From assembly GCA_025403435.1 (NCBI GenBank), contig CM046330.1, positions 21,598,239 to 21,662,238 on the forward strand: 64,000 nt of DNA, in the 5' to 3' direction. The notes under the pieces are model-generated. The model was not told the DNA's origin. It ran no database searches and saw only the letters and a list, made by a program, of their open reading frames with translations. The translations under genes were made by a program, and so were the position numbers. Positions within the stretch are counted from its first letter, which is position 1; the number at the start of each line of letters is the position of its first letter. Shown one piece after another: positions 2,525 through 59,735 of this stretch. The stretch comes from Artocarpus heterophyllus. Taxonomy: Eukaryota > Streptophyta > Magnoliopsida > Rosales > Moraceae.

Positions 2525-4328
2525 TTCACCCGAGACACTCTCCTCTCTCTCTATCTCTCTCAAAATTTTTGAAACCAAATTCGAATCCAAGCATCGGGTT
2601 AGCAAGGAGGAAGCTCGGGGACGTGATTTGGCAACCGAGAACGCGGATTGAAGCTTCGATTCGAGGTTAGTTTTGAAATTTCTAGATTTTTTACAAAATT
2701 TTCAATTTTGTGCATTTTTGAAATCTAGGTTTGTTTAAGCCTAGGAAACCCTTGATTTGAGTTAAATGAACTTAGAACAACTAGAATCTAAGCTTAGATT
2801 GAAGAAAAACCGATTGGATTCAAGATTTTTCATTTTTGTCCCTATTTTCTCATTGGATTTTTGGGATTTTTAAGTTTAAATCTTGTTTAAATAAGTCCAA
2901 ATGTGTTCTACTATGTTTTTTTATCAACTATGATTGTTTTCTATGCCTGGGATTTGAGAAAAACAGGTTAGAATCAAGATTTGTGTTTTGGGGATCGAGA
3001 AACCCGTGGCTGGATTTCTAGGTTTTCCCAATTTGGCAGGCCGAACTGTGTGTTCGGTAGGCCGGACAAGGGATCGGTAGGCCGGTGTTCTTCCGTCCGG
3101 CAAGCCGAACCTGGGGAAATGACCGGCCGACCGGACCTGGCTTCCGGCAAGCCGAACTGTGCAGTTCGACCGGCCGAAGCAGGGAGTCCGACAGGCCGAC
3201 CGAAGCATAGAAAATTTTGTGATTTTCACCCGTTTTCACTGTTTTGAACCCCAACTTAAATTCCAACCTTATAGAATGATTTTAAAGATACAAATGACAC
3301 ACTAGGACATCATGAAATGGTTTAGTAACATAGAATGTCTCGAACTAGATATTGATCGACTTAGTTTATATCTAGGATCGTTCGTGGTTCCGCGGAGCTA
3401 ACGTATAGCGGACCGAGATTACGGTGTGGGGCACTGGCACGAGTATTGAGGTAGGACTTCTACCCTATTCCTTGGTAGCCTAGTTTCAAAATGATTTGGC
3501 TTTGAAAATGATTTCTATTAAAATGTTTTCAACGGTTGTTTGAAAATGAATTTATCGGTTATATTTCAATATACCGTGAACTGAAATGAACTTCATAATG
3601 AATGTAAATGACAACACTTGGTAATTGGGTTTTGAATGATGATGATAATAAACATATAGACATGATGCCATATCAGAGATCGGGTCGTGTAGCGATCGAC
3701 CTTGGGGGCAGGTCCCGAAACCCAACTGGGCCACTACTATGGTGATGTTATTATGGTTTGCCTAGGAAAAGAAAATGATATTTCTGGTTATCCAAGTAAA
3801 CTGTTATGGGTAAGAATGGTTTTACTTCAAATTGTTTATTTATTTATTCAAGGTTTCTTTTAAATAACTTCTAAATAGTGACATGTTTCTTCAAATTAAG
3901 TTATTTATAAAACATAGTCCTACTGAGCCTTTCGCTCACGTTTTATTTATTTTAAATTTCCCCTCTCTAGGTGGTTTTCCATTTAGGTTTGGAGAGGATT
4001 CTTCGGACCGAACTCAGGAGCAATAGAAGAATTAATTTATCTTTTGTATCATTTAATCAAGGCATGTGAGACTTTAACTTTATTTGTATCGGGACTGTGA
4101 TTGTATTTATGATATTGTCAGTACCATGTGTGTGCACAAGTTGTGGATTTGTGGAACCCATACTCGCTAGGTTTATTCTTTAAATATTAATTATCCATGC
4201 AATGGTTTTCTTTAAATTTTCACATTTTATATTCAATTCAACTCCTAAATTCTTGATTTTTAATTAAATTCTCTTTTAATTAATTTAAATAATCCACCAC
4301 GTCACCTCCCGTACTCCGAGGCGTGACA
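2178..4328 (+). mobile_element. Solo LTR 1 (gypsy type, family A)
   Basis: The unit begins TGTAACGCCC and ends GAGGCGTGACA, with a perfect 5-bp target duplication GTTAG at 2173-2177 and 4329-4333. No internal region follows, so it is a solo LTR left by LTR-LTR recombination. In order it carries a CT-rich leader with a TATA-like CTATTTAT (about 2450-2560), a splice-donor-like GAGGTTAG (about 2663), a CGGCaGGCCGA palindrome cluster (3035-3205), a GGTAGGACTTCTACC block (about 3450), and a TACTGAGC...CGCTCAC motif at 3921-3939. An inverted copy of the same family is at 13822-15889. Confidence 0.9.
3035..3205. repeat. TCGGCMKGCCGA palindrome cluster, solo LTR 1
   Basis: At least seven degenerate copies of a palindrome close to TCGGCAGGCCGA lie here, for example GGCAGGCCGAAC, TTCGGTAGGCCGG, CCGGCAAGCCGAAC and CGACAGGCCGACC. 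They are separated by 8-20 bp. The cluster is GC- and CpG-rich inside an AT-rich LTR. Confidence 0.85.
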
Positions 4329-4451
4329 GTTAGGGACAAACAACATTGACGGTTTAGAGTCAAAAGTGGATATCATTACGGAATTGTGATTCTTAATAGT
4401 ATTGTTAGATTTGAAATTTCGAGAACGAAATTTCTTTAAGGGGGGTAGAGT
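4329..4451 (+). mobile_element. Gypsy internal remnant, right part, with polypurine tract
   Basis: The sequence resumes after the target duplication and runs to GAACGAAATTTCTTTAAG plus a G-rich stretch (about 4420-4451), immediately before an LTR start TGTGACACCC. This polypurine-tract arrangement is typical of plant chromovirus-type gypsy elements and fixes the element on the plus strand. Confidence 0.75.
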
Positions 4452-4655
4452 TGTGACACCCATTATTTTCTTAACAGGTAATATGGTAATTAAATTAATT
4501 ATTAGTATGCTAACTAAAATTTATTTCATCTAAAATCTATTTCATCCTATTTATTTATACCTATTTCAAAATTTTCTAAAATTTTTTTATATCTATTTAG
4601 TAAATTTACCGAAACGCTCTTGGAACATCAAATTAATTACTAAAATGCCATTTGG

Positions 4656-4665
4656 CATTATATAA
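4656..4665 (+). promoter_or_regulatory. TATA box of gypsy 3' LTR
   Basis: TTATATAAAC lies about 200 bp into the LTR and is followed by a CT-rich leader, the expected place for the LTR's RNA polymerase II start. Confidence 0.55.
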
Positions 4666-13821: not shown

Positions 13822-15889
13822 TGTCACGCTCCGGAATACGGGAGGTGATGTGGCGGGTTAATTAAATTAATTAAGAGGGAATTTAATTAAAATCAAGAGT
13901 TTATGGGTTACATTAAATAATAAAATGTAAAGGTTCAAGAAAACCATTGCATGAAAAATAAATGATAAACATAGCGAGTATGAGTCCCACTGACCCACAA
14001 CTTGTGCACACACATGGTACTGACAATATAATAATACAACTACAGTCCAAACGTAAGGAAAATTAAAAACATTACATGCCTTGTTTAATTTATACAGACA
14101 ATCTAATCAATCCTTCTACTGCTCCTGAGTTCGGTCCGTTGAATCCTCTCCGAACCTAAACGGGAAACCACCTAGAAGGGGGAAAATTTAAAACAAGGAA
14201 AATGTGAGCGAAAGGCTCAGTAGGACTATTTTTTAGCAAATTATTTAAAAGAAACATTTAATAAATAAATAAATTTAAATAAAACCGTTCTTACCCAAAA
14301 CAGTTCACTCGGACAACCAGAATTATCATTTTCTTTTCCTAGGCAAACCATAAGAATATCACCACCATAGTGGCCCAGCTGGGTTTCGGGACTTGCCCCC
14401 AAGGTCGATTGCTACACGACCCGATCTCTGATATGGCATCATGCCTATGTGTCTATTTTCATCATCATTCAAAACCCATTTACCAAGTATTGTCATTTAC
14501 ATTTATTATGAAGTTCATTTTAGTTCACGGTATATTAAAATATAACCGATAAATTCATTTTCAAAGCCAACTCATTTTGAAACTAGGCTACCAAGAAATG
14601 GGGTAGAAGTCCTACTTCGATACTCGTACCGGTGTCCCACACCGTAATCCCGGTCCGCTATACGTTAGCTCCGCGGAACCACAAATGATCCTAGATACAC
14701 ACTAAGTCGATCAATATCTAGTTCGAGACATTCTATGTTACTAAACCATTTTCATGATGTCCTAGTGTGCAATTTGTATCTTTAAAATCATTATACAAGG
14801 TTGGAATTTAAATCGGGGTTCAAAACAGTGAAAACAGGTGAAAAATCACAAAATTTTCCATGCCCCGCCGCCCTGCCGGACTCCCTGATTCGGTCGGCCG
14901 AACTGTTCAGTTTGGCCTACCAGAAACCAGGTCCGGTCAGCCAGACATTCCCAGGTTCGGCCTGCCGAACGGTGCAGTCCGGTCTGCCAATCCCATGAAT
15001 CCGGCCTGCCGAACTGGGAAAACCCAGAAATTCCAGCCACGGGTTTTCGATCCCCCAAAACCCAAATCTTGATTCTAACCTGTTTTTCTCAAATCTCAGG
15101 CATGGAAAACATTCATAGATGATAGAAAAACATGTTTGGACCCTTTTGAACTCATTTAAACAAGATTTAAACTCAAAAATCTCAAAAATCCAAAAATGGA
15201 GAAAAATGAGGAAAAATAAAAAATCTTGAATCTAATCCGTTTTTCTTCAATCTAAGCTTAGATTCTAGTTGTTCTAAGTTCATTTAACTCAAACCAAGAG
15301 TTTTCTAAGTTCAAACGAACTTAAATTTTAAAAATGCACAAAATTAAAAATTTTGGAAAAAGTTTAGAAATTTCAAAACTAACCTCGAATCGAAGCTCCA
15401 ATCCGCGTTCTTGGTAGCGAAATCTCATCCCCGAGCTTCCTCCTTGCTAACCCGAAGCTTGGATTCGACTTTTGATTCAAAAATTTGAGAGAGAATTGAG
15501 AGAGAACGAGGCAAACCGAGAGAGAGGAAGAGAGAGAGAGCTCACGGGTGAGGAGAGAAGAAAGAGAGTGAGAGCTGAGAGTGAAGAGAGAGGGGGAGGT
15601 GAGAGAATAAATAGAGAGAAACAGTGGGCGATTTTACTATGCGAAAACCAAATGCTACCCACGGTTTTGTAAAACGGAATATTTTTAACATTTTACAAAT
15701 TGATGTGCTTTTAAAACTCAAAACATCATTTTAAAACAATAAGAAATCATTTGAATTCATCAAATTAACAAAACAACCAAAAATTCAAAATTTAACCAAA
15801 TAATTAAATTAATGTTGAAACATTAATTATGGCACACTAATTCATCATTTTACATTACAATAATATTAAATAAATTTCGGGGCGTTACA
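13822..15889 (-). mobile_element. Solo LTR 2 (gypsy type, family A, inverted)
   Basis: On the minus strand it begins TGTAACGCCCCGAAATTTATTTAAT at 15889 and ends GGAGCGTGACA at 13822. It aligns along its length with solo LTR 1. GAGAG flanks both sides (13817-13821 and 15890-15894), though the right one lies in a GA microsatellite. It holds the same parts in reverse: the TACTGAGC...GCTCAC motif (14204-14222), the block giving the spurious MAQLGFGTCPQGR reading (about 14370-14450), a palindrome cluster (14868-15016) and a GA-rich leader (about 15480-15610). It ends 124 bp beyond the stop codon of the host gene at 16013-16964, so it probably sits in or beside that gene's 3' UTR. Confidence 0.9.
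14868..15016. repeat. TCGGCMKGCCGA palindrome cluster, solo LTR 2
   Basis: Six or more copies occur, such as TTCGGTCGGCCGAAC, TTCGGCCTGCCGAAC, CCGGTCTGCCAATC and CCGGCCTGCCGAAC. The cluster matches the position of the one in solo LTR 1, but the units are not copied one-for-one. Confidence 0.85.
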
Positions 15890-19601: not shown

Positions 19602-19784
19602 AATCGGCCTACCGATGTACTAGGTTTGGCCTGCTGGACCTGTGAGTTCGGGCTGCCTATTACACAAGTTTGACTTGTCAAACTTATGCAGTGTAGTCGA
19701 CCGCACTATATTACTCATGGTTGACCGCATGCTAGTGTGGCTTGGTCGACTGTGTTACATAATACGCAGTCGACTGTGTTGTCG
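19602..19784. repeat. Mixed palindrome cluster: TCGGCCTACCGA and GTCGAC
   Basis: AATCGGCCTACCGATG, TTTGGCCTGCTGGACC and TTCGGGCTGCCTATT are followed by a second palindromic type: TAGTCGACCGC, GGTTGACCGC, GGTCGACTGTG and CAGTCGACTGTG. Confidence 0.7.
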
Positions 19785-20717
19785 TTAGCAGTATGCTCTG
19801 TTTCGAACATCCGAGTTTCAAACCAAATTTAAGTCATTCCAGATCTATTCTAATGCATATAAAACATGTCCAAATGATCCATAAACATGATATGAAGCTT
19901 ACAAACTCAGTTTCATCCACATGGAACTCACCTTCATCATTTTACATGCATTTTTACAATTTATTTTGAAATGAACCAAAAATATAAAAACAAGTTTTAA
20001 TTTAGTTTTAATCCAAGTAAAGCATGAATTCATGTTGAAACACATTCCACAGTATCAGGTTATGTGTTGTTTATACATATCAAACCTCTAATCATAACAT
20101 GCAATGCAAAATTTTAACAAATTTGTCTAATATGCAAATTGCTCTAGCTGTATGTAAGAACCAAAATTTGAACACGAATTTGATCTTCAAAATCAGAGTT
20201 TAAACTTCTAAATCATGATTTTAATTTTTGCTAGGAATGACTCCAACCTAAGACGAACATTTTGTTGCAGCTTGGTGATGTCAACTCAAACTTCTAGCTC
20301 TTGCTTGGCTGGGAATAAAGGCTTTGTGTTTTGAGTTCTTTGTTTTCTGCTAGAAAATGTTTATTGTATTCTTTGTGTCTTGTTTGAATTATGTGGAGCT
20401 ATACACAAGAGTGTTTGAATGATTCTTGGTTGTATAGAGAGAGAAAGATGTGAAAAACAAGGTGAAGAAGGGAAAGAGAGAGAGTTGTGAGGATGAGCGA
20501 TGGAGACATGAAGAAAACAAGGAGTAAGCTAAGCTGTATATGGTTTTGTTTACTCAAAACTCTTGTATCCATATGTTTGAAATGGTTAGACTTAACTAGG
20601 TTATCAAAATGGTTTTGGACCTAGGGCATTAGATGGGATTTTAATTTGACGGGACATGTGATGTCAAATCCCATATTTATCTAAGAGTTACATAAGATGT
20701 AATTGGTAAAGTGTTAC

Positions 20718-21770: not shown

Positions 21771-21779
21771 GACTACTCC

Positions 21780-41309: not shown

Positions 41310-41324
41310 GTAGCCCCCCAGTTC
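41310..41324 (-). promoter_or_regulatory. Polypurine tract of the Tat element
   Basis: The minus strand reads ACTGGGGGGCTAC directly before the LTR start TGTTAGGGG. Confidence 0.8.
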
Positions 41325-41696: not shown

Positions 41697-44089
41697 ATGA
41701 GTGACCTTTCTAACTCCTAGAACGTAGATATTTCATGGTCGGATAGCAGCATTGAGACGAAGAGATCGACCTCCAAGGAAGTGGATATTGAAGGATTATC
41801 CCCAGGGTAGGATGGGGTAGGCCGGCTAGTCGAAATTTTAAGGCTCAACGCCAAGATGGTACTTGAGAGAGAGTTCTTAGACTTGCCGGATGGGAGATGC
41901 CCTGTTTGGCCGTGGAGGAGCAAGGATCCATACATTGGCGCTGCCACTGCTGGCATATCCCAAATTACCACCCAAAAGCGTGTTGCCTTGGGGGCGACTG
42001 TCGGTGAACTAAGCACCTCTGGCTGAGAAAGCAAAGACCCGATCCACGTCACGGGTCAGATTACCGTAGAGATCTCTGACAAGGAGCAGTGAGCCGAGCA
42101 AGTGGCTCCCGAGGAGAGCGCCATCGAGGAAGAGGAGGACATCAAAAGAGTCGTCGTCACCCGAGTCCTGAGGGGTGACGGCTTATCAGTGATCTTGGCC
42201 CCATCAAACATCCATGGTAGGTTACTCGAGCGTAATGATGGAGGCCCGACTCAAGAACCTACTCCGTGAGTTTGGCATCCTCGACGACGTCGAACTTATC
42301 ATGCCCTGGGAGGAAGATTCGTTGCTGACTCAGCTCGAGGGTATATAACATTATATGCAGAGTTCTTCAAGGCCAAGCTGCGCCTACCATTTCACCATTT
42401 TCTCCGCACGGGCACTAAATGACTTGAATTTCTACCTTGCCCAACTTAACCCGAACTAGTTACAGGTCACTGATTGGGATGTACGTGCTATGGAGGTACC
42501 ACCAGGCTACTGAGATATGGTGGGAAGCCTTTAAGCAGGTGTACAAAATGAGAAGCTTCCCCGACAGTCTAGCTAGTACTAAGTCACCAGCTTTAAGAAG
42601 GATTTCATCTTGGGCAACCCCAACTCAAACAAACTTTGGACATTTAAGTGGTTCTACGTCAGGGGAACTACTTAGCCTGGGCCGGTGAGGTCGTCCCCAA
42701 GGATCAACGCGTTCTGAGGACATTTGAGCAGGGACACGTCTGGTCCAAGAGGCCCTGGGCATCGAGCAACATTATCAGGGTAGTGGAGGATCTGTTTGCT
42801 AAACCAGAGTCCACAAGACAACAGTCGTTCCTACTTGGGAAAGAGACTTTTTCCCGTTACAGCTGGTTTGGGGAGTCCAGCAGAACCAATCCCCCTTCCA
42901 ACATCAGCCTGCCCGGTCAACCAGGCAGGCGACAATGGTGAGGCCGTGCACTGTTGACATCTTGGGGCCAAGCACCTCCAGATCTGGGTGGTCGACGAGG
43001 AAGCCATCATCGTCCAGTAGCAAGGACTCGTCGAGTGGATTCTTCGACACAGGGCCACCTATAGTAGATGAGGACCTCGAAGACATTATACGGTTCCTAT
43101 ACCCATCAGGCCAGCTCCAAATTGGTGGTGAGCTTCGAGTTGTTTTTTTTTTTTTTTTTTTTGCTTTGCCGAGCTCAACTTAACTTGGGAGATTTTTGGT
43201 TCTTATCGCAAAAATGTCTTCCCGACCAACTACTCGAGTGGAAAGGCAAGCTCGAATAGAGAGTCTTTGTCGATTTAAGGGGAAGGTCATGGTTGGGTCT
43301 AAATTGAAGAGAACTCTAAGATCAAAGCAGCCATCAAGGTCTGAGAAGCCGCCACGGACCGAGCAACCGCTTCAAACAGTCCAAGTCATTCCCTCGCCTC
43401 CACCAATGAGAACGAGGGCTTCATCCAGCTAGCCCTAACCTGTTGCCGTCATAACTATCGTTCCGCTGTCTTCTAGCAATCCCCTGAGGAGGCGTTGGAA
43501 TGCCCAACGCCTCATCCTCGACAACCTTGTCGAGACCATTCCTGACAAATCGTTCTTAGAGAACCTCCGTGTTCGAGAAGGACGTGGTCGAGAAAGAGCT
43601 CGAGTCGAAAAACATCAAGCTTGATCAAATCAATCAGCTCTTTCTCAGGTTGAAGCCGAGGCTAACAAGGCGAAGGAAGAGGCCGAACATGCAAAGGCGA
43701 AGGCCGAGCAAGCGAAGGAGGCGGCCCAACAGGCGAGGAATGAGGCCAACTAGACCCAGGATGAGGCCAATCACCTAAGGGAGTAGCTGCAAGCCTCCCA
43801 GGCCGAGCACCAGTTGTTTCTGAGGGAAGAACTGCCAGGTTGCCTGGCCCAAGCTGTGGAGGAGTTCAAATTGTCCTTGGAGTATGCCGACTATTATTAC
43901 TTCGGGATGACTGACCTCTGAGACTACATTATCAACAAGCATCTCGAGGCAGTCAACTTCAATTGGTCGTTTATCATCAAGCTGGAGCAAAGCAAAGAGC
44001 AGCAGCCTGAGCCAGAGGATGTCGTCGAGGTGGACGACGAGGACTGGGGAGATCGCGGGAATGATGATGAAGCTGGGGATGGGGCCTAG
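41697..44089 (+). pseudogene. Antisense extra ORF of Tat element (transposase_28-like)
   Basis: The ORF opens at ATG 41697 (MSDLSNS, stop, NVDISWSDSS) and shifts frame several times. Middle pieces (DLNFYLAQLNPN, QVTDWDVRAMEVPPGY, GNPNSNKLWTFKWFYVRG; about 42420-42660) resemble the plant 'putative gypsy-type transposon' domain (PF04195, from memory). The last part (43640-44089) is one open frame apart from three stops (TAG near 43751, TAG near 43783, TGA near 43919). It starts with a heptad-like Ala/Lys/Glu coiled coil (EAEANKAKEEAEHAKAKAEQ), then FKLSLEYADYYYFGMTDL and an acidic tail ending at TAG 44087-44089. Extra antisense ORFs between pol and the 3' LTR are known in Tat elements; their role is unclear. 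Confidence 0.75.
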
Positions 44090-44992
44090 GCTTGATCTTT
44101 TGTTTTTTTCTTTTCCTAGCTAGGCTCGGGAGGTGTCTGGTTATTTATACCTCTCCACTACTTTCTTTAATGAAATTTTTATTTCTTTTTCCAAGTTCAT
44201 TGCTTCTCGGAATTTTCCTTTTAATTTGGATCTTCAAATTTTTCTTTTCCAAGTGCGATTGTCTTCAGATGAAATGTTAATTTCATTCTTTGAAAGCTTG
44301 TTGGGCTTCTTGGGAATGAAGTTTGAACCCCATTTCTCCGAGTTAGATGCTTCTCAGGAGAGGAATTGAGTTAAGAATTCTTCTAAGTTGGATGTTCCTC
44401 ATGAGAAAACATTTTGGAAATGGATTCCGAACTCGCATTTTTTCAATTTCATTCTCGTCGAGTTTAGTATCTCAAGAACAAAATGTCTAAACTCCAAGTT
44501 GAATATTCTTCAGGAACAAACTTCCTAAAAAAAACAACAAGCGTCTGCTGAGTTTAGCCGAGCAGGGGAGGCCCATTTCTCGATTGGGCAGAGCACAACG
44601 GTGTGTGGTACCCTATACTCTGTCGCCCCCCTTAGACTTGCTTAAGTTCATTCAAACTTTTGCGAGTCTAATGTTGGTTGGGCATAATCATGCTAGGGTG
44701 ACTCTATTTGGGTGGTCTGTGTGGCAATAGACTAATGGTTGGCACTATACCGACTAGCCCCCGGTCCGGTTAGTTAGGAGGACTCTCCCTCTTCGGGAGT
44801 TAATGTCGGGTCCCCTGGACTAGAGTTATGGCACCCCTTTTTGGGGTTGTATCTTTCCTAACACGCATTGCTTAGTGAAATAGTGTAAGAATTAAAATTT
44901 TGATTAATGTATATATTTACATTCTAGCCCTGTTTGGGAAGTCTAGTTATCAAAGAATGTGGCCAGAGGTCAAAAAAGGTTTATGGCTTTGG
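44090..44992. other. Convergent spacer between antisense ORF and pol
   Basis: The region is T-rich after the antisense stop, without ORFs or recognised repeats. Two convergent transcripts would end here. Confidence 0.5.
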
Positions 44993-46050
44993 TTAGCAAA
45001 AGAATCTTTTCAAAAGCTCGGTGATCCAAGGATGACCAAGCGGGTTGCCCTCCATATCAGATAGCCTATAGAAGCCTGATCGGACAATTTTGATAACCTT
45101 ATATGGTCTGTCCTACTTTAGACCGAAGGACCCCAGCCTTGGCTACTGAACTATGACCTTTTTTAGCACCAAGTCTCCAACTTTGAAGCTCCTTGGTTGG
45201 ACCCGTTTGTTGTAATACTGAGCAACAACTTAATTTTGAGCTACATTGTTGATCATAGCACGGTTTCTCTTCTGCTAGAGCAGATCAAGCTCGAGCATCA
45301 TGACCTCCATGTTTCGAATTTCTTTGTACTGCTCAACCTTGAAGCTCGGTAGTCCAACTTCTATTGGGATGACAGCCTTAGCCCCATAGACGAGAGAGAA
45401 TGGGGTATTTCTGGTGGTAGTCTGGGCTATTGTTCGATAAGCCTAGAGCACCTTTGGGAGCTCTTTGATCCACGCACCTTTGAGGTCCTCAAGTTTTTTC
45501 TTCAGGTTGTCTTTGATCATTTTATTAACGGGTTCAACCTGTCCATTGCTTTGAGGGTAGCTCAGAGAGGAGAAGACATTCTTAATGCCAAGCTACTCAC
45601 ATAGCTAAGGATTCGAATTACTTTATGTTGTCGGTCATAATGGTATGTGGGATCCCGAACTGACAAATGATGTTTTTTCATATGAAGTTAGTGCCCTTGG
45701 CCTCGGTCATGTTGGTACACGGCTCTACTTCCACCCACTTCGTGAGGTAGTCGATGGCCACAATGCAATACCTAAACCAAGACCGGGCTTGTGGAAAGGG
45801 TCCAACAAGCTCGATGGCCTGCTTGGCAAAAGGCCACGTCGATGTTACCGAGGTGAACGGTTTGGTATGGCATCTAGGTACCCTTACAAACTGTTGGCAT
45901 TTAAGGCATTTTTGCTCAAAGTGCTTGTAGTCTTGTTCCATAGTTGGCCAGTAGTACCCTTGTCGAAGACACTTCTAGGCCAGTGAACTCCCCCCAGAGC
46001 CCCTCGTGGATCTCCTTCATCAAATATTGGGCTTCTTTGGGCCCTACACA
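44993..46050 (-). pseudogene. Tat integrase (broken)
   Basis: The open piece 45941-45678 carries CLKCQQF, then KQAIELVGPFPQA and YCIVAIDYLTKWVEVEP. The first catalytic Asp (normally IDLVGP) reads Glu. Downstream, SYPQSNGQVEPVNKMIKDNLKKKL, AYRTIAQTTTRNTPFSLVYG and YYNKRVQPRSFKVGDLVL follow in broken frames to TAA at 44993. The NGQVE Glu of the D,D,E set is present. The zinc finger upstream is partly unreadable. Confidence 0.88.
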
Positions 46051-46423
46051 CTTCAAACATAGTATAGTGTAGCCTTGCCGTTACAACTTTTTGCCAATCA
46101 TCGAATATCAGGCTGAGCTGTTATGAATTTGGGTACCTTTTCTTGGTCGCCGGACAATTCGGCTGTGGTCAGGTATCGGATGATCGGGTCCTTCTAGGTG
46201 GTCTCTTGTTATTCAGCTACACTTGCCACTTCCTTGTTGATACTTGGCTCGGCTAATCTTTCTATGGGGACCGACGTAAGCTCATTGTCATCCAAGCTTG
46301 AGGCCAGCCGAGCAAGCGCATCGGCCTCAGAATTTTTGGATCCGGGGATCTTCTTGAATGAGTAAGCTTTAAATTGCCCGAGCAATGCCTTAACCTCTTG
46401 TAATATGCGGTCATGGATTTTGT

Positions 46424-46670
46424 TCAGGCTTGGAATACCCCAGTGACCTGTTGAACGATGAGCATGGAGCCGCTGTGGATTATTATGTGGTCCACCCTAG
46501 GGTCTCTAGCGATTTTGAGTCTCGCCAGAAGTGCCTCATATTCAGCCTCATTATTAGAGGCCTCAAAGTCAAACTGAAGTGCATAGATTGTCTTATATCC
46601 ATCAAAGCTAGTCAGGACTAGCCCAGCACCTGAGCCCTTAGCATAGGAGGATCCATCCACAAAGAGTTTC
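46424..46670 (-). pseudogene. Second (additional) RNase H of Tat element
   Basis: VDGSSYAKGSGAGLVL...NNEAEYEALLARLKIA...IHSGSMLIVQQVTG matches the extra RNase H that sits between the normal RNase H and integrase in Tat elements. The Asp of DGSS and the Glu of NNEAEYEAL are present. The Asp expected in HSDS is Gly (HSGSM), so activity is doubtful. Confidence 0.88.
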
Positions 46671-46799
46671 CATTTTGATTCTGGCCTAGAAGTATGACAA
46701 CTTCCACTACAGCTAGGAGCATCTGGGTCCTCGACGGGGGCTTTCTCGACTAGTGTGCCTTGCTCGGCATCTATGAACTTGGCAATGAAGTTGGCAAGG

Positions 46800-47390
46800 G
46801 CTTAGGTCTTAATAACCATCCTCAGGATAAAATGAATATTGTATTGACCAAGCTCGACCGACCACTTGGCCATCCACTCTGATATTTTTGAACTATATAG
46901 GACTTGCCGGAGGGGAACTTCATTAGGACTCGGATAGTATGGCCTTGAAAATACGGCTGTAGTTTTTGAGCCTGAAGTGATGAAGGCAAATGTGAGTTTT
47001 CGAGTAGAAGGTACCTCTCTTCCTTGTGGCTTGTATAGTAGATGAGCTTCTGAACTCCGTCTTCTTCTCGGACGAGGACCGAGCTGACAAGCCTTTCTTT
47101 CGACACAACGAGTTAGGCAGTATAAGACTTCTCCCGATAAAGGTTTGGACAGGAGCAGGGGCATGGCTAAGTACCTCTTTAAATTTTGAAAGGCTTCCTC
47201 ACACTCTCTGCTCCACTCAAACCTCCCCTTGAGTGCCTAAAAAAATGGGTGGCACTTGTCGGTAGACTGAGAGACAAACCTAGAGAGGGCTACTACCATG
47301 CCGGTGAGCTTCTGCACCTCTTTGACTGTCGGAGGTGAATGCATGTCTATAATGGCTTGAGCTTTGGCTAGGTTAACCTCGATTCCTCTC
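46800..47390 (-). pseudogene. Tat RNase H (first copy, frameshifted)
   Basis: MPLLLSKPLSGEVLYC, then in a shifted frame VSSVLVREEDGVQKLIYYTSHK, matches the gypsy RNase H core. The tail WPSGRSSL...NTIF is in yet another frame. It continues directly from the RT connection (EWSRECEEAFQNLKRYL). Confidence 0.82.
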
Positions 47391-48400
47391 TAGTTGACCA
47401 GGAATCCGAGAAACATGCCCTGAGTTAACCCCAAACGCATATTTTGCTGGGTTGAGTTTCATCCCATATTCTTAGAGAATGTCGAAGCTTGCTTAGAGAT
47501 CGGTCATGTGGTCTACTGCTTGGATGGATTTGACTAACATGTCATCCATGTAAACTTCTATGGTTTTGCTAATTAGCCAAGCAAATATTTTATTGACAAG
47601 ACGTTGGTAGGTAGCCCTAGCATTCTTGAGTCCGAAGGGCATGACTACATAGTAGTAAAGCCCTTGGTGGGTGACAAAGGCTGTTTTTATTTGATCTTCC
47701 TTGGCCATCTTGATCTAATTATAACTGGAGTAAGCATCCATGAAGCTTTGCAGCTCGTGCCCGATGGTTGTATCCATGAGCTGATCTATCCGGGGTAACA
47801 GAAAGCAATCCTTGGAGCAGCCTTGTTTAGGTTGGTATAGTCTATGCAAATCTGCCATTTTTTGTTTGCCCTCTTGACGAGGACTACATTTGCCAACCAC
47901 TCTGGATACTTTACCTCTTGGATGAATCCAACTTTTAGGAGCTTTTGGACTACTTCATTAATGGTAGCATACCTTTTTGGGTTGTAGGCCCATCTCTTTT
48001 AAATAACCAGCTTGTAGTCTAGTCGGACATTAAGCCGATGACAGACAATGTTGGGATCAATGCTGGACATATCCTCGTGAGACCACATGAACACATCTCG
48101 ATACTCTGTGAGGAGCTTCTCTAGGTTGGCTCAGACCTTTTTAGCTGAGAACCGAGTTTGACCATATGGTTGGGATGTGCCGGGTCTAGGTTAAACAGCA
48201 CCAGATCCTCAACGGGGGTGGCTCTCACCTCCTCTTTAGGTATACGGGGGTTGAGGTCGGAGAGCATCTTAGGCGTTTGCTCGGTTGGGAACTATATTTC
48301 GTCGACCTTGTAAATGGCTGAGACATTTAGTACATTTAGTTACTGAGCTGATGAGGCCTTCATAGCATTAGCATAGCAAGCTTAGGAATCCTTCTGTTGT
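47391..48400 (-). pseudogene. Tat reverse transcriptase (broken)
   Basis: In order: LLKVGFIQEVKYPEWLANVVLV, KWQICIDYTNLNKA, DQIKTAFVTHQGLYYYVVMPFGLKNA, and IEVYMDDMLVKS with the catalytic YMDD box (47538-47552) intact. The frame changes near 47715. Confidence 0.9.
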
Positions 48401-48605
48401 GACCTGATTATTCTGACCCCATTATCTGTTGAAAACTTCATGGCTAAGTGGTGGGTGGAGACCACAGCCTTCACTGCATTTAGTGTCGGACGGCCGATAA
48501 TAATGTTGTATTATGAGGGTTTGTCGACAACGAGAAGTCAACGATGCATGTCACCCGAGCAACACCCTCGCCGAAGGTGACCGGCAGGCCAACCTTCCTA
48601 ACTAC

Positions 48606-49031
48606 TTAGACACATTCCCTAGTGAAGCTGTAAAGTGGTGTCTGGACCAAGAATAGGGTAGCATTGTTGATCTTCAACTTGTCGCATGCTTGCTTAAATA
48701 GGATATCAATCGAGCTACCATTTTCGATCAACATATGATAAACTATATTGTTGGCGATGTGGAGCTCGTACATAAGGGCATCATTATGCAGGTGGATTAG
48801 CTTATCTGCCTCCTCCTCTATAAATGTGATTGGCATGTCTTGTTGGCAGCAGATTTTATTGATGTGCTCAAACATGTTGATAAGCTCGCCTCTCTCGACT
48901 AGCCGAGCTTCCAGGACATAAGTACGCCGCCCACTTGATGTGTCCTTCGTAACTGGCCCTCTGAAGATCGTGTGAACAATATTCAGAGGTTTCGAGGCAT
49001 TCCCACCATCACTGCATGAGAGGTTGTGCAC
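48606..49031 (-). pseudogene. Tat protease region
   Basis: The 141-codon piece contains PITFIEEEADKLIHLHNDALMYELHIANNIVYHMLIENGSSIDILF. This aligns with the Tat protease, where a VDNGSS- or VDTGSS-type site is expected. Here the active-site Asp is Glu (IENGSS), which should inactivate it. Confidence 0.85.
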
Positions 49032-50627
49032 GTCTCGGGTAGGCTAGTCATTTCTCCTAGCTATAGAGCCTAGGGTTAGGACACGCTCCACAAACTTCCG
49101 TAGGTGCCCATCTCGGACCAACCTTTCGATCTAGTCCTTGAGTTGGATGCAGTCGTGGGTGTTGTGTCCGACGTCTTTGTAAAAGTTGCAGTACTTGCTT
49201 TAGTCCCGCTTCGCTTTATTGTCCTTGAGTTTAGGCGGATCGACCAGCAAGTTCCTCCTGCTCATTTGGGCAAATACTTCATCAATACTCACGACCAAGT
49301 GTGTATAGCTTTAGAATTTTTTGGTCGGCACTTTTGGCTTCTCGGTCTTCTTATCCTTCTTCCTCTTCCTGTTCTGCTCGGTGCTTGGCTACTTGGGCAT
49401 CGTCTTTTGTTTCTTCTCCTTCTTGGTGTAGCTACTGTTGCCTTCTTCTTGGTGGCTCTTCATATATTCGGCCGCATCAGCGTACCTTTGCGTGTAGCCG
49501 AGCATCTGAGAAAATGTGCTCGGCTGCTCAAAGGCCAATGACCAGGTCAGCTTTTCATCTCAGAGACCCCCCACAAAGGCGTGCTTCAGGGTCTCGTCTT
49601 CAACATGCTTAACCTCGAGCACTGCTTGGGTAAACCAATTAATGTAATCTCTGACATTACCATCCCCCCGCTTAACTGCATAGAGGTAAGTTATTTCTTT
49701 TCTTCTCGTCTTTGTCGTAGAGAAGGCATCAGAGAGCTGGTGAAAAGAAGGGATTGAAGCCGGTTCTAGGCACCAGAACCATTGCCGAGCTGGTCCAGTC
49801 AGGGTTAAGGAAAAGGCCTTGCATATTGCTACGTCGCTGGTGTTTTGTAGAAGCATGTGCACTCGATACTATTCGACATGCTCGTCATTATTGGCGGTCC
49901 TGTCGTAGGCCTTGATCTACAGAACCTTGAATTTTGGTGGCATAGGGGCTTGCATGATGGCGTCGGTAAATGGCAGATCTAAGGCGCCGACTGTCATCCA
50001 AATCGAAACGGTTGTTGCAGATTTCACTGATTTGGCACTACAACTCCCAGAGCTGGTGGCTATTGGTATCTTCTGGCAGTTCCACCCTATAGGGTGCTCC
50101 AGCCTCAGCCCTGTCACTAGCCTCGACGTGGCGACCCTACTGAGCTTCCCCTAACGCCCGAGTAGATAAAAAATGGAAGCTCAGGAGCCCTATGGTGATG
50201 GAGCCTGTGCCCTCTACGGACCAAGCTGACCTTCCCGGACAAGTCTATTATTGGCTGAGACGCCATGTATGGATCTTCTGGAGTGCTCGGAGTCAGCTTC
50301 ACTAAGGTCGATGGCTCCTTGTCCTGCTTGACCCCCAGCCTGGTCAGCCGGGGCTGGGGGAAGGAAGACTGGAGCCAGTTAGTACTGTGCCTACTGTGCA
50401 AGTTATTGTGTGAGTATCTGAACAACATTTGTTAGTTCTCAGAGAGGGTCTTAGGCAACTGGGTCATGCACTTGTTTGGCCCTTGCCACACTTCTTTGAC
50501 CCCTAGAACGGGATCTCGTAGCTTGAGGGCAACCTTTGGGTCTGGCTGGATTTTGGTTCCGGTTTCGGGCCTCTCCCGACCCCTCTTGTCAGGCACCCTC
50601 ATCCTGGGAATTGCCTCGTGTCACCAT
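49032..50627 (-). pseudogene. gag: Tat gag (broken)
   Basis: Gag starts MVTRGNSQDEG at ATG 50627, about 75 bp after the 5' LTR. The gag core is LLQNTSDVAICKAFSLTLTGPARQWF...RDYINWFTQAVLEV (49862-49560). A linker rich in Lys/Glu follows, then a zinc knuckle KYCNFYKDVGHNTHDC (near 49195), in which the second ligand is Tyr. Several stops break the frame. Confidence 0.88.
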
Positions 50628-50684
50628 CTTTAGATCACAAGTTGGGTTGTGGCTAATGATTTCAAGTGAAGGCATATGTGCCCT

Positions 50685-50700
50685 CCTTCTAGCGCCAAAA
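50685..50700 (-). promoter_or_regulatory. Primer-binding site of the Tat element
   Basis: The minus strand reads TTTTGGCGCTAGAAGG immediately after the LTR. TGGCGC-type sites are usual in Tat/Athila elements; which tRNA is used was not determined. Confidence 0.7.
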
Positions 50701-51342
50701 TGTTGATGCTTACCGTAATCTGGCGGCTGATCAACACTACATGCGACTGTGCATGGTAGACGGCTCTTCCGTGCTCGACTCTACTTGTTTGAACATACCT
50801 GCAACAAGAGGAGAGATGCTTCAGAGGTGAAGGGAAAACCAGTTAGGTGACAAACAAGGGCTCTCCGATGCTCAAGGCAAGTGCTACTCAGCAGAGAACG
50901 GTAGCTAGTTTGGTGGGAAGGAGCACGTTTGCTTGAATGCATTAAATGCGTTCTATTTATAGGTTGCTACTTGAACCGGGTGTAACGTGGGTTTTGCCCA
51001 CTACCCGCATGTCACATCAAGACGTGTTAGAAGGTAGAAGCAAGTGTCGTGCCCTCCACCGATGGATCAGTTCCCATCTGACGGTGAGTTGTCCACCATC
51101 TGGTGGCCAGTGATGACGAGTAGCAGCCCACTTTGTGAGTTAAGGAAACCCGACCCGAGCTGGTGTCTGACCTGAGGTGGCGACCATTCATGCCGCGGCC
51201 TGAAGGGCCCTGAAAAGCACATCGGAGAGACAATCCAAGCTTCACAGGGTTGGTTATTCGCTCCCAGTAGCTCCTACCGAGCAGGTTTACCAACCACCTA
51301 GAGTAGGGCTCCTAGATGGTGGCGCAAAGCTCACCCTCAAAA
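50701..51342 (-). repeat. 5' LTR of the Tat element
   Basis: It runs TGTTGATGCTTACC to CACCCTCAAAA (642 bp) and is followed by TTCCT. The last bases have drifted from CTAACA, but length and flank still match the other LTR. A TATA box is present near 50950-50962 (minus). Confidence 0.92.
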
Positions 51343-52436: not shown

Positions 52437-52926
52437 GATGTTGTTGGCTCCAATATTTCAAAAAGTTATTTTAAATTAGTTTTGATGATAACAAATCAAT
52501 TTTTGTTTTATGTAAAATGGCTAATCATTTTCTTGAGTTTTGCTAAGTATAAATATATAACCAAATTATTCGAAGCAAAATCAAGTCTCAAGAACAATCA
52601 AGACATGGTGTACTTTAAAGAATGAAGAACAAGCCTTGAAGAGCTAAGTTTTAAGTTTTTATGTTCTTAAATTTTCAACGTGCATCAAAAATTCTCTACA
52701 CATATTGGTTCATGCAAACTCAAATCACACACACATGCATTCATAGTATATCAAACATAAGTATTTTCAAACTTAAAATTATGTGGCTTAAATATTTTTT
52801 TTTTTAAGAATACTTGCATCTGAAATGTGGAATTAAAATCACACTCAAAGTGCACACAATTCACTCCAATAAATTTTCATAAAAACTACATTTTGGAAAC
52901 AAGTCTTGGGAGACCCTATTCAGCAG

Positions 52927-53200
52927 GACCAGCCTGCTGATTGCAAGGGATAGAAAGACGGTTTTTCTAGCTCTTTGTCAGCCTGTCGATTCAAATGAAC
53001 CGGCCTGCCGAAAGCCATGCCTTGGCCTACAGATTGAACATTTTTGGAAGCATGAATTTTATCATACTTTTGGTGGCCTATCGATGGTTGTGACTGACCT
53101 ACCGGTCACCCTTGGCAGCCATCAGGTCAGATGACCATTTGGGGCCTTTTTAGAAAAATTAAAATTTCCAACTTGTCGGTCAGTCTATAGCAGCTAGTTT
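52927..53200. repeat. Palindrome cluster in solo copia LTR
   Basis: Units include CCAGCCTGCTGATT, GTCAGCCTGTCGATTC, ACCGGCCTGCCGAAAG, TTGGCCTACAGATTG, GTGGCCTATCGATGG and CTGACCTACCGGTC. They are more decayed than in the gypsy LTRs, mainly CG to TG or CA. Confidence 0.8.
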
Positions 53201-54073: not shown

Positions 54074-57000
54074 AAGGTTGCATTAAAAAGAAATAGAGGC
54101 AAAAACATCATACTTTCAATTAAAGCATTCATCATTCATTTACTACAACAATTCAGAGACATGTATCCCCATTTTTACATACATTGTTTCAGGCTGTAGG
54201 CTGTAGAAGATGTATGTACTTACCTGGATTGTATGCTTAGCCTTTTTCTAAGCTCAATCCTCACCGACTCCTTATGTCAGTCACGTGTCTTGATTAAACT
54301 GACAACCAACTATCAAAGTTAAGTTTTATGTATATTTAACATACTCAAATAATTGCCCTAGTTACAATGGTTTTTAGTATGGTCTTACACTAGCTAGAAA
54401 TGCCCAATTAAAAGGTCGTTGAACTTTTTTTTATTTTCTTAAAAAGTCAACCTCACTTGGGAGTCCTAGTTGCGTTTTATAGTTAAATTGGTTCTAATCT
54501 GCTTTATATCTTGCTCATGCTTTGCGAACAATTATAATTTATGCTTAAAGGAAAAATGTGAACCATGATTAATTAATTATTTAATTAATTTCTTATGATC
54601 TACAACTTGAAAATACAAGTTCTTATGGCTTTACTAAGCTTCAGCTTGGTCTCCGGGCCTCTCTTAACTTATTAAGCCTTGGTAGAAAACCAATTTGGTT
54701 CCAATAGGCCCAGTTTCTAAGATTGATATGTGCTATTTTACCTTAGTGGCTCTTAATAGTGATTTGGGCCCATAAGGCCCATTTGTCTTATTTCAATAAT
54801 TTCGCTTGACTTCTAAAGGATAATTTCCCATTCTAGAAATATGTGGGCCAAGACCTGGGGCTCGGCCTTAATATGACAATTTTACCGTGGAGGTAAAATA
54901 ACTGTTTTACCCCTGATTGGTTGTCAATAATCTATCTTTATTGTATTGAAGCATTATAAACTGCCTTAAAGTACATGGCAGTAAAATATAAAGCTTGTTC
55001 ATTATGACCGTTTTACCCTTATAGTAAGAAAATGACTACTTTGCCCCAACGGTTCTCAAATCCCTCGTATGGCGCTCTGACTTTAACGTGAACATGTTTT
55101 CTCTGTCCTCCATAGATTTCAGAACACATTTCCACTGGGCTAACCAGTAATTTCATCCTTACCCAAAATGTAAAATTTTGATGACTTTTCCCCTATGACC
55201 GACCAAGAAACGTTTTGTACAGTTTGATTTGTCTTTTATGATGAATAAAAGTCTATAAAGGTGTAACGGCTAATTCTCAAGTTTTGGACATGTTTTTGCT
55301 ATTTCTCCCATAATGCTATATTACTTGTAAAATTACAAGTTTGTCTCTAGGTTTGAATTCGGAAAAACTTTATTGATGAATGTTGTTTGTTTTGAGGAGA
55401 AATTAAACATAAATTATTTAAAACTTAGCATCTATGATTACTCACTGCCTACAACAGTGCAGGAACCCAATGTTTTTTGGTGAAAACCCAGTTTCATACA
55501 ATTTTACGGTTTTAGCCCGAAACACAAAAATCCCTACAATTTCCCCCCAAAACAAAAATCGACCACTTTATACTAAAACGTTCAATTTTTCACAAAGAAT
55601 AAAACGTAGAAAAGCTTCTTGGTTGAATTCTAAATATTTCATAACGTTTCCATGTCATGAAATTTTGTGCTCAAAATTTCGTAAAATTTATAACTCCTCA
55701 ACTGAGCAAAATTTTGCAAACTGTTTATGTTGTCTTAACAATTTCGATGAGTTCTACAACTTTCATGTTTTAACTTTCTTGAAATTCTGTTAAGGTGGAC
55801 TTTTTGGCTGATTTTCAAATCTGTCAAACTTTTACAAATCTTTGCAATTTAGTCCTTTTGGAATTTTACAAAACTTTTTTCACAACAGTTGTTTCCCTCA
55901 CTGTTTTGGCAAGATTTTAGACCTTATTTAGAACATAATTTGGCCTCTAAGGCCCTCAAAACCGCATTCCTTTGAAACTAGTTAAACTTTGTTTATAATA
56001 CAAAGTTTAACAATTTTCTACTTTTAAATACCAACACCCCTACTTTCTTTATCATCACCATCAATATTAAACATAAAACAATCATGCCATAATGTCCATC
56101 TTACATGCCATAGCCCAAAACATTTCATCAAACACTTAGCATGCATAATTAAACATTAACTTTAGCTTAATTAAAAAGACTAGGATTTTACCTAATCCAT
56201 GCAAAGTGCTTGTCTATTCTTTTAATTACTTGAAACCCTTCAAAGTTTCCTTAACATCATTTCATAACATAACCCATGAAAATCCCATCCAAATCATAAA
56301 CAAAAACCCTAAAGCTCAATAGGAAAAACTTGAGTTTTTACCTTGAAAACTCTTCAATTTTCATCTCCTTCACTTGTTCTTGCTTTCCTACATGATTTGA
56401 AGGCTTAAAATTCATCAAAATTTTGAGAGAGAATTGCCTTTGGGAGGGGCAGTTTTGGAAGAAGAAAGTAAACATTTTTGGTTCTTTTTTTTTTTTTTTT
56501 GGTTCTTATAACATGAACCAAATGATGACTACAACTTGATATTTTTACCAAATTTGATGACTTTGCATGCTTAGTCACCACTAAGCATCATTTGGTGATT
56601 AAAAGTTGGGGCAACTTGGCAAGATTTGATTTGGCCACTTCAAGGGGTGTGGTGGCAATTTCTCATCTATTTGGGTGTCCCATGGTGGGTCTCACTTTTT
56701 TGCATAGTCTAAATTTATACTGACAGTATTTTTCTTATGCCACTGGTATATTCTCTATACTATTACGAGCTTACACAGCATTCCTTATTCTTTTATGTCC
56801 TCCAAATAGTATTATTCCTATACTACTTTAACCTTAAGCAGTCTAATTTCTATACTGCATAACCTTAAATAGTCTAATTCCTACTCTGCATTACTTTTAC
56901 AGTATAATTTCAATGCTACATAACTTTACCAGTGTATTTTCTTACACTGCATTATTCTAATACTATATATATTTTTTATATTATTATACCGCATTTCTTT

Positions 57001-57252
57001 TAAGCTATATTTTTGTCTTAACTTTTGTTGCAACATATTTTGCAACAATTAAGCTTTTTAGCTTATTTTCATATCATTCCTTTTTTGTATAAAACTATGG
57101 CATGATGTTTACTTTTAAAAATCTCGTTTTTGCCTTTATGGACTTTATCATAGAAATTGAATTAAACAATATTCCTTGTGACACATGTTTTTGCTTAACA
57201 TAATCCTTAAGTTATTATATTTTTAATGTATTAAAAATGCTTGGGTGTCACA
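54074..57252 (-). mobile_element. 3' LTR of minus-strand gypsy-type element, left boundary unclear
   Basis: The LTR start, read on the minus strand, is TGTGACACCCAAGC at 57252. From 57000 down to about 55430 it matches 62585-64000 at high identity, including the U3 repeats (56807-56965) and the text TGATTACTCACTRCC. To the left the match fades, and the true end was not found; the solo copia LTR may have split it. Confidence 0.65.
56807..56965. repeat. U3 tandem array, about 30-bp unit, of LTR type
   Basis: CAGTCTAATTTCTATACTGCATAACCTTAA-like units repeat about five times. Each has CAGT and ACTG facing each other across about 12 bp. The same array occurs at 63920-64000 and, decayed, at 1320-1430. 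Confidence 0.8.
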
Positions 57253-58369
57253 ATTTACCCTTCTTAAAAATTTTCGTCCTCAAAAATTTAAACCTTCATG
57301 GGTTGTTCATTTACTTATCCTCTTCTTATTTCCTATCATCCTTTTCATTCTTAACATACTTTCTTGCATTATTACTTTATTAATGAAAACTAAATCTCTA
57401 ACTTGGAAGTTCATAAACCTTACATCATTTCATTAACATATTTCATTGAGTTGTAACACTACACTTCTACTGCGTAACTCTAATCTTTTAGTGTTCGAGC
57501 ACAGTTTCCTTTCATTTAAAAGATTAGCATTCTACCAACGAATGCTATTCTTAAAATAGGGTTTATATTTATCCAAATCGCATCATGACTATCAAAAGAT
57601 GAGGGCCATCCGACCATAAATCTATAATTTTTTGGTCCTATATCTATTCTAAAATTATGTTTTTTCTTTAATTTCCTTATAACGTATAAATCTCTAGCTT
57701 CCATCCTCCAATCTATGAGGTTCTCGCTAACAGATTTGGCAACATTGTCTTAATCGTGATTCTCATCCGGGTAGTTACGAGCTCATTAGCATGTCTCACT
57801 CAGCTATGGAATGCTTAAGCTTGAAAGGATCGCATAGTTAGTCACCTAACATCGGGTTGCTCTCGAGCACTCTTGTTCCATAGAACACCAAAAATCATTT
57901 TTGGACCTTTATTGATCCGTTATCTTGATCTGCTCTCCTTGTTTTGCGTATAGTCAATACCGAATGATTTCTAACAAAGCAAAATTTGCTCAAACGGAAA
58001 ACATAGTTGAGCAGGAGAAGATCATAACGTGTCGTGAGCTCATCTTCTTGATTTTTGAGCCGTCGGCCATCTGTTGACCATCATTGACCATGTTTGATCA
58101 TCGTTAACTTGATACCGCTGATGGACGATAACTGTCATTGACTTGTAGGGACATTATAACATATAACATTACATTGATCCTTAAACCTTTGCCTTCTTGT
58201 TGCTCATCCGAGAGTGCTGACATCAAAGGCTATATACCTGGTATAAGCACGTATTTATTAAATACTAACTTTTCTTCTCACTTAACTTAACTTACTTACT
58301 TGAGCTATGGTGTAGCAGACATATGACAATGCGAAATGGGATAGTAGGATACCGCTTTGATACCACCTA
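57253..58369 (-). mobile_element. Short non-coding interior of minus-strand gypsy-type element
   Basis: It is bounded on the minus strand by a primer-binding site (58364-58351) and by GAGGACGAAAATTTTTAAGAAGGG (57253-57285), the polypurine arrangement. Only 1.1 kb lies between, with no gag or pol. Either this is a non-autonomous/deleted element or two copies of one family have been joined. Part (57935-57990) resembles 290-340. Confidence 0.55.
58351..58364 (-). promoter_or_regulatory. Primer-binding site
   Basis: The minus strand reads TGGTATCAAAGCGG, one mismatch from TGGTATCAGAGC, a few bases after a possible LTR end GTCGTCA at 58370. Confidence 0.7.
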
Positions 58370-59657
58370 TGACGACTTGCCTTTTCGGGTAGTCACTTAA
58401 CTTTCTTAAACATCATTACTTAAACATTAATTTTACTTAGTAAGAAATTACTGAATTTTTTTTTTTAACATCCATTAAAACGTTCTTAAAAGTTGTTGCG
58501 ACTACTGTTGCAACTTAGGTTGAGACATTGCTCAACACTTGACTTTAAAACCATTTCAAATCATTTCTTAAAACTTTGATTTTTTTAAAACTTTGAAAAC
58601 ACTATATCATATAGTAGAAACACATTTTCTTTGAGCAGTGAAAACATACTGTAGTGGCATCCATGCCCAAATTTTCACCTCTGTCCTCCATAGCACCAAG
58701 CTTTTCAAACAAGTCCTACTGGTCACCCTAGGGCTACCTACAGCATGAAGGAACTTTTGATGAGCTTTTCACTCAGTAAGTTCAAATATAAACTAACAAA
58801 TCTTTTTAACATGCTTTAAAAGCTTTTCTCATAAAAACCTTTTTTCTTATAATGTTTTTCATAAATGTTTTTTGAACATTTTTCTTAAAACGTCCTTCAT
58901 TAACCTTTTCTTGTAAACATAAAAATGTTTTTCATAAACATTTAACGTAAAACATTTCTCAAAATGTTTTTCATAAACATAACACATAAACATTTTATTA
59001 CAAGGAATATAAGCAAAATCAAAATGCAGGTTTCCATGTATGCTCAATTATGAACTTTCAATTATGAGCATCTTATGATCATTTACTTTAACTTTTTTAT
59101 CTTTATTCCTTAACTTTCCTTATCTTATAAACTTTAGTATTCGTATCAACTGTTGGAAAAGTAGTACGCAATGAAATTTTAAAAATTTTAATATTAGAGT
59201 ATTTTTTAAAACACAAGTTTGACACACTATATGCATAAGTTAACTAGATCTTACTAACCTCGTTTGCTGAAAAGCTTCCGCAATCTATCAAGAGAAAGGC
59301 ATTCCAAAAGAGCCTCAACCTATTGGTCTTTTTTGCTATTCTTTATCCAAGATTGGAATGCGTGTGGGTGCACATTGTACAGCTTTTCCCTGGTGTCTCT
59401 CCTTCCAACCAATTGAGGAAACCGAGGACTAAGGTTCATGATTTATGAACAATAGCTCTCAGGGAGTTTCAGAGACTCACAGTATAGAGTGTTCACTCTT
59501 AATTCCTCAATTGATTCAAATAACATTGAGTCTCACTCCCCTATTTATAGAATTCATGCCCAGGTTGGTCCTTATTAGATAAGGCTTCAAAAATTCAAAT
59601 TAGGATCAATTATCTGATAAAATCATGTCTAAAAATACGTGATCAAAAATCGTTCAA

Positions 59658-59735
59658 TTGGTAGGCCAAACTTATAGATCGGCCTACCGAACTTAGCCAC
59701 TGACAGACCAAACTAGAAGATTGGCATGCCGAACT
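59658..59735. repeat. Palindrome cluster in minus-strand copia LTR
   Basis: There are four units: ATTGGTAGGCCAAAC, ATCGGCCTACCGAAC, CTGACAGACCAAAC and ATTGGCATGCCGAAC. Confidence 0.82.

Follow-up and report, generated by a model that had tools for sequence, protein, structure and literature searches.

Why should one short palindrome be repeated, at a regular spacing, inside the long terminal repeats (LTRs) of retrotransposons that otherwise share no recognisable LTR sequence? The question is raised by a stretch of 64,000 nucleotides from Artocarpus heterophyllus (contig CM046330.1, positions 21,598,239 to 21,662,238), called the window here, in which an initial annotation had described clusters of a 12-bp palindrome in the LTRs of several element families. 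The word, TCGGCMKGCCGA, is carried by two Ty3 families (T and A) and by one Ty1/copia family (C). On balance, and judging from sequence, we think that the arrays probably provide a single dimeric DNA-binding protein of the host with phased sites, which several retrotransposon families would have gained separately as promoter or leader elements.

The motif is far above shuffled expectation and is concentrated in the carrier LTRs compared with other window DNA. A scan of the window for the word with up to two mismatches found 42 near-matches, against a mean of 1.13 and a largest value of 4 in 100 dinucleotide shuffles. With any centre allowed and the same tolerance, 36 of 49 units, including all nine perfect ones, lie inside the 12.5 kb of five carrier LTRs; two other repeat pairs (4.2 kb) hold none, and the remaining 47.3 kb of the window holds 13, including the arrays at 19604 and 52920. 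Over the whole genome (985 Mb) the exact word occurs 71,980 times and the same word read backwards, the control, 13 times. With the centre left free these numbers rise to 78,652 and 221, and the centre is MK in 91.5%. Eight of the nine clusters stand within a few bases of where they had been placed, and the ninth, given as 52927-53200, has units (up to three mismatches) only in 52920-53033. Seven of the nine window arrays fall in T, A or C, the exceptions being those at 19604 and 52920. Rfam returned nothing at the gathering level.

The word was also followed in stretches of the genome outside the window, which carry L-numbers (L009, L018 and so on). Fifteen of these are 10 kb long, two at the start of contig 1 and 13 at round coordinates on other contigs; further stretches were picked for holding the word (four of 8.0-9.5 kb and nine of 2.1 kb), plus four short ones. 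Arrays were present in six of the 13 coordinate-chosen stretches, 12 arrays in total, of which seven belong to T, four are A or A-like and one belongs to C. Array statistics are based on the first 268 kb of the sample, with 45 arrays and 258 units, and gaps of up to 75 bp were permitted within an array, hence the period of about 21-22 bp was not imposed.

Arrays hold 2-9 units at a typical phase of about 21-22 bp, which is about two helical turns. Neighbour distances are 20-24 bp in 160 of 213 cases; 182 fall at 18-27 bp, 24 at 39-51 bp (about two periods) and one at 28-38 bp. Among the first 100 genome pairs listed, for which 13-43 bp was allowed, distances of 21 bp (30 pairs), 22 bp (26) and 43 bp (23) dominate. 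The 12-bp palindromic word is real, but the conserved unit is longer and, as the initial annotation had not noted, it is phased and has a polar centre. From base frequencies by array class (T3, T5, A, CU and CL, the C classes being those of the copia family) the full unit is G-(T/A)-TCGGC-NN-GCCGA-A-C. The outer G is conserved at 47-83%, the outer C at 48-92% and the inner right A at 50-86%; outer G and C are complementary in every class, and the inner left base is T in classes T3 and A and A in classes T5, CL and CU. The centre gives each array an AG or a CT majority. Within arrays 218 units follow the prevailing polarity of the array they belong to, 7 oppose it and 33 are neutral; with all arrays oriented by their majority, 202 of 258 units have an AG centre. 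In plain counts of CpG dinucleotides, the motifs make up about 5% of the T and A LTRs yet hold 21-30% of their CpGs; in C they hold 7 of 66 and 4 of 46.

Carrier families and the sequence around their arrays

The T element occupies 24814-35890. Its 5' LTR (24814-27946, plus strand, TGTAACACCC..GGGGCGTTACA) and 3' LTR (32812-35890, plus strand) are 92.5% identical and have TG..CA ends, with the 5-bp target-site duplication (TSD) AAGTC and the primer-binding site TGGTATCAGAGT. The internal region (27947-32811, plus strand) has Pfam matches to gag, RNase H and an integrase zinc finger, all of Ty3 type, to SH3_Tf2-1 and to a weak chromodomain (E 0.039 in the window and 2.7e-4 in L025, both below cut-off), and no RVT_1 match was found in the 98-residue T piece submitted to Pfam. 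Each T LTR has two arrays of opposite polarity, near 250 and near 2,400-2,600, and four LTRs hold 11-12 units each in arrays (up to two mismatches). The 5' LTR has five units of AG polarity at 25064-25168 (plus strand) and nine at 27421-27632 (minus strand, CT on the plus strand); the 3' LTR has five at 33062-33165 (plus strand) and seven at 35425-35594 (minus strand). Several candidate TATA-like sites can be picked out in the T LTR. Two inverted arrays could be the subterminal repeats of a DNA transposon, a possibility that was ruled out by the presence of both arrays inside the TG..CA LTR, at both LTR positions, with a TSD. The T element is nested, with a clean 5-bp target duplication, in a copia element (20566-36600) which it splits into 20566-24813 and 35888-36600 (plus strand); this copia element has RVT_2, and an uninterrupted copy is found in L014. 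About ten copies of a tandem repeat of about 122 bp adjoin T-element sequence in L012 (4430-5698).

Family A, which like T may, from its LTR ends, be of Tekay/Del type, is represented by L018, L026 and two LTR copies in the window, and has RVP_2, RVT_1, RNase H and integrase by Pfam. Its 2.14-kb LTR has a single array near 850, with 7-8 units in seven of eight arrays and five in the decayed window copy, and a TATA-like site about 700 bp or more downstream of the array. The window LTR at 2178-4328 (plus strand, ends TGTAACG..CGTGACA) is solo-like, having no direct-repeat partner in the window, and is 84-85% identical to both LTRs of the L018 element. Its array at 3033-3199 (plus strand) has eight palindromes of AG polarity spaced 21, 20, 23, 22, 25, 22 and 22 bp. 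The LTR at 13822-15889 (minus strand) had been described as a diverged gypsy LTR and so as a separate carrier; it is a second family A LTR, 82% identical, inverted, to 2178-4328, and its array at 14868-15012 (minus strand) has five recognisable palindromes spaced 22, 67, 22 and 22 bp.

Family C (L024, L027, L019 and the window LTR) has RVT_2 and copia gag by Pfam. The LTR is about 2.04 kb long with an array of 2-4 units near 1,440, and the 5' leader holds a second, opposite array of 6-9 units, about 515 bp beyond the LTR. A TATA-like site follows the LTR array by about 110-120 bp in all three LTRs, with other TATA-like sites at 80 and 968. In the window, the C LTR at 59144-61168 (minus strand) is 78-80% identical to LTRs of L009, L024 and L027 over about 2.0 kb, and carries a decayed array of three units with mixed centres at 59658-59732 (minus strand, spacings 21 and 42 bp). 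In the L024 copy the open reading frame (ORF) of pol stops about 17 bp short of the 3' LTR, without a long linker, AGGGGGAG was not found in the internal region, AGTGGGAG occurs three times, once 10 bp ahead of the LTR and twice much farther upstream, and no polyC was seen at the LTR end. The 5' junction of C, CA/ATTGG, is Sirevirus-like. Apart from this junction, C fails the Sirevirus marks tested (multiple AGGGGGAG polypurine tracts, a long linker and polyC). A 142-bp tandem repeat lies beyond the leader array of a C element in L034 (1579-2101), and in the window C-element sequence from past the leader array is present at 58382-59003 in the orientation opposite to the C LTR at 59144, which indicates a rearranged copy.

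When 13 LTR or leader sequences were compared with their arrays masked, no significant match was found across families (best E 0.055 for A-T, 0.19 for A-C and 0.004, over 26 bp, for C-T). Inner spacers of different families were no more alike than column-permuted ones (p 0.99 for T-A, 0.82 for T-C and 0.23 for A-C), and exact inner-spacer matches numbered 0 of 51, 0 of 30 and 1 of 21, respectively. Together with the Ty3 and Ty1 domains, the masked comparison upholds the central claim of the initial annotation, that one module lies in LTRs of different families and superfamilies which cannot be aligned. The range of carriers does include both Ty3 and copia elements, but there are fewer families than had been implied (T, A and C), and two arrays are without a family. 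The suggestion of a small satellite that jumps between LTRs is not supported, as spacers are not common to different families. Spacers could be used to assign 61 of the 100 listed genome pairs to a family, and 39 were left unassigned because spacers are short and variable. Three further loci read for this assignment were C LTRs; a fourth (L040), chosen for its non-MK centre, was a lone site within an element.

One ancestral array may also have spread between families by recombination or template switching, its spacers having since diverged beyond recognition. Fast spacer evolution would erase old homology, patch exchange is seen within family C, some classes show similarity in a looser spacer test, and the same GCCGAC[CA]GAG is often seen by eye at the end of long T, A and C arrays. 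Transfer of the module through shared spacers was hinted at by a best-of-pairs comparison, which is biased, and by the looser test, in which copies are not independent, and column permutation found none. Since spacers are not shared between families, there is no LTR homology around the arrays, and the arrays of T, A and C differ in position, number and orientation, we consider such a transfer distinctly unlikely.

Turnover of the arrays and what may read them

Among copies of one family the spacers evolve more quickly than the LTR around them, and the palindromes and their spacing are kept. Alignments were made of 28 of the 41 classed arrays, those dropped being second LTRs of the same element, near-duplicates and short or edge copies. 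Identities of spacers and LTR flanks were 0.68 and 0.79 in T3, 0.73 and 0.89 in A, 0.63 and 0.87 in CU, 0.66 and 0.76 in T5, and 0.45 and 0.84 in CL. Identity at motif positions was 0.78-0.87 in the same five classes, a figure favoured by consensus-based unit finding, as the spacer figure is not. Four units were detected in seven C-LTR arrays, and all seven have the spacing 21-22-21 bp, two of them coming from the LTRs of one element; arrays with fewer units (window, L027 twice, L029, L030 and L038) are excluded from this count. In a comparison of eight C arrays, with one weak unit placed by hand in L030 (four mismatches) and one in L038 (three mismatches), mean identity was 0.87 in flanks, 0.85 in motifs and 0.58 in spacers. 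Recent insertions with intact arrays are found in L018, L024 and L026, where LTR pairs are 97.7-98.8% identical.

Two explanations that need no reader bear on this pattern. Ordinary minisatellite turnover without function would account for uniform polarity as well as for the gain and loss of units, which does occur, with seven units in one LTR and eight in the other of the L018 A element. Such turnover copies the spacer along with the unit, whereas here unrelated families have the core in common and not the spacers, and we find it hardly credible as an explanation. The arrays could also be mainly targets of host silencing, small-RNA hotspots that persist as a by-product, as has been proposed for maize Sirevirus LTR palindromes; palindrome-rich regions of maize copia LTRs are reported, in the accessible portions of two papers, to be fast-evolving small-RNA hotspots (PMC5311732, PMC10760457). 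Selection should work against a sequence that attracts silencing, but the palindromes and their phase persist as the spacers change, which makes this a very unlikely account.

The reading that we favour is that one host-encoded protein, most likely a dimer, recognises the two-fold symmetric core TCGGC-NN-GCCGA together with flanks that are conserved in part. A host-encoded protein that binds at phased sites is suggested by the occurrence of one exact word in elements that are unrelated, by spacers that are not shared, by the fixed two-turn spacing and by the lack of a recognised accessory gene in A and C. Units two helical turns apart would place bound dimers on one face of the DNA, where they could cooperate. 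At least three families, the Ty3 families T and A and the Ty1 family C, would have built up LTR arrays separately, with a further array in the 5' leader of C. The arrays may act as promoter or enhancer elements, possibly keeping a CpG-rich stretch open against silencing; a role in driving or shielding LTR transcription is suggested chiefly by the TATA-like site that follows the array in C. Of the three meanings offered by the initial annotation, a site for a host factor, acquired by several lineages, fits the word, the phasing and the unshared spacers best, and we hold it to be somewhat better than an even prospect. If one host protein does read the word, the genome would hold tens of thousands of ready-made phased sites in LTRs, and unrelated retrotransposons would share a host input.

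Several points weigh against a host protein as the reader. We know of no protein that binds TCGGCMKGCCGA. Uniform centre polarity is unexpected for a strictly symmetric dimer site and needs either a centre that is read or unit duplication. Conservation of the motif is partly circular, as units were found by their match to a consensus. The search for accessory genes extended only to ORFs of at least 130 residues in A (L018) and C (L024), among which Pfam recognised only gag-pol. In the looser spacer test T3-A, A-CU, T3-CU and CU-T5 were weakly similar above shuffles, with related copies treated as independent, and its reverse-complement control was ambiguous, T3-CU scoring higher there than in the forward match. 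Old or decayed carriers also exist, with LTR pairs 90-93% identical in L027, L025 and the T element of the window. Finally, the RNA of the arrays is predicted to fold more strongly than dinucleotide shuffles in all five arrays tested (z -3.5 to -8.0).

This last result fits a role of the palindromes as nucleic-acid structure, either RNA hairpins or kissing sites for dimerisation, packaging or template switching, or DNA cruciforms. Palindromes at the 5' end are reported, in the part of the paper that was accessible, to drive dimerisation of yeast Ty3 RNA (PMC11381356). A swapped patch inside the array distinguishes two C LTRs, L009 (3570-3645) and L033 (1048-1123), whose 300-bp flanks are 99.7% identical; L033 shares its third spacer with L038, and there the adjoining units are unlike those of L009. 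Arrays thus seem to exchange patches internally, as though the palindromes served as points of exchange, and such a swap is what template switching would give. Mirrored double changes at position 2 number 6 against 2.5 expected. Covariation of the arms within the 12-mer is not significant in 258 units (odds ratios 0-1.8, p at least 0.24), and the flanking G/C pair leans the opposite way (odds ratio 0.57, p 0.046). Genome-wide there are 2,825 mirrored and 1,391 unmirrored double arm changes, a count that lacks the single-change term TCGGCAGGCTGA and so gives no verdict on covariation. A need for a fold alone explains neither one exact word in unrelated families nor the two-turn phasing, and we regard structure as an unlikely candidate.

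A wider form of the host-protein reading can be put forward tentatively, as a possibility that we rather doubt. The word may be a host-specific CGG-N4/5-CCG password read by a fast-changing host factor, on which unrelated elements (Ty1, Ty3 and maize Helitrons) would converge and with which they would switch together when the factor changes. If this were true, the arrays would be records of the host factors on which each element lineage depended.

Arrays outside the three families and other repeats

The two arrays without a family are both on the minus strand. That at 19604-19659 has three palindromes and lies about 1.3 kb upstream of a copia gag; the nearby copia pol has RVT_2, no LTR partner was found for the array, which may lie in an LTR or in a leader. 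The other (52920-53033) is decayed, with four units, and no host element was found for it.

Two repeats of the window are without an array. A minus-strand element at 40665-51336, gypsy-like by eye, has short terminal repeats that are 85.6% identical, and the piece of it submitted to Pfam gave no match. A lone TCGGACGGCCGA lies inside it at 48486. A site with a non-MK centre, TCGGCTGGCCGA (L040), likewise stands alone, outside any array, in sequence that matches the internal region of this element. The second is a repeat pair, 55404-56883 and 62556-64000, that is 86.5% identical.

Comparison with known systems

Among the matches listed in literature searches on five forms of the word, none concerned retrotransposons by its title, and those listed for LTR palindromes or shared LTR motifs included no report of TCGGCMKGCCGA in LTRs or of phased chromovirus arrays. 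The view of the initial annotation that no named LTR element matches was nevertheless too strong. Palindromic repeat boxes with a CGG-CCG core (RM boxes) were described in Sirevirus LTRs in 2010 (PMC2829016), and are a precedent, though with other words and in other elements. As far as the accessible text of that paper goes, RM boxes resemble the present arrays in their CGG..CCG-core palindromes (here TCGGC-NN-GCCGA), present in many copies, clustered in LTRs and rich in CpG, and in that the same box type occurs in elements with dissimilar LTRs; the Vitis box (CGGTCGACCG) and the Usier box have a CGG-N4-CCG geometry (PMC2829016). By their unit counts T, A and C reach the eight or more copies in each element, grouped in LTRs, by which RM boxes are recognised. 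In Sireviruses the clusters further stand a short way ahead of a conserved TATA box and mark out a CpG island. The same text reports RM boxes as Sirevirus-specific, absent from classic copia elements and differing in word between many elements (PMC2829016), whereas the single word described here is carried by two Ty3 families as well as by a copia family that lacks most Sirevirus marks, and family C has a further array in its leader.

Likenesses to other systems are more partial. In maize the palindrome CACCGGACNNNGTCCGGTG is common to structured regions of Copia and Helitron elements (PMC10760457, citing Bousios 2016), so that there too one CpG-rich palindrome is found in unrelated element classes of one genome; the word and the partners are different, and Ty3 carriers are not mentioned in the portion of that paper available. 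Two-turn phasing is found in the present arrays, and was not looked for in the RM-box or maize-palindrome papers. The VANDAL elements of Arabidopsis have arrays of VANC target motifs, and VANC6 motifs are also found in the unrelated AT9TSD1 (PMC5735166, PMC10398659, both available in part). There, as here, a short motif is repeated in fast-changing non-coding arrays. Arrays of the VANC type are anti-silencing, the bound protein bringing about loss of DNA methylation. The VANDAL motifs differ from ours and are read, according to the same excerpts, by the sequence-specific protein VANC, which the element encodes (PMC5735166, PMC10398659), whereas the A and C copies gave only gag-pol among ORFs of at least 130 residues. 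The dimerisation palindromes of Ty3 RNA, as described in the accessible part of that report (PMC11381356), likewise lie near the 5' end of the RNA of an LTR element; they are six-base single sites, unlike phased LTR arrays.

What is new is the occurrence of one word, with strict phasing, in Ty3 elements and in a copia without most Sirevirus marks, within one genome. If the host-protein reading is true, the function of CGG-CCG palindromes in plant LTRs, an old question, would become open to a direct binding experiment, and such palindromes would be extended from Sireviruses to Ty3 elements.

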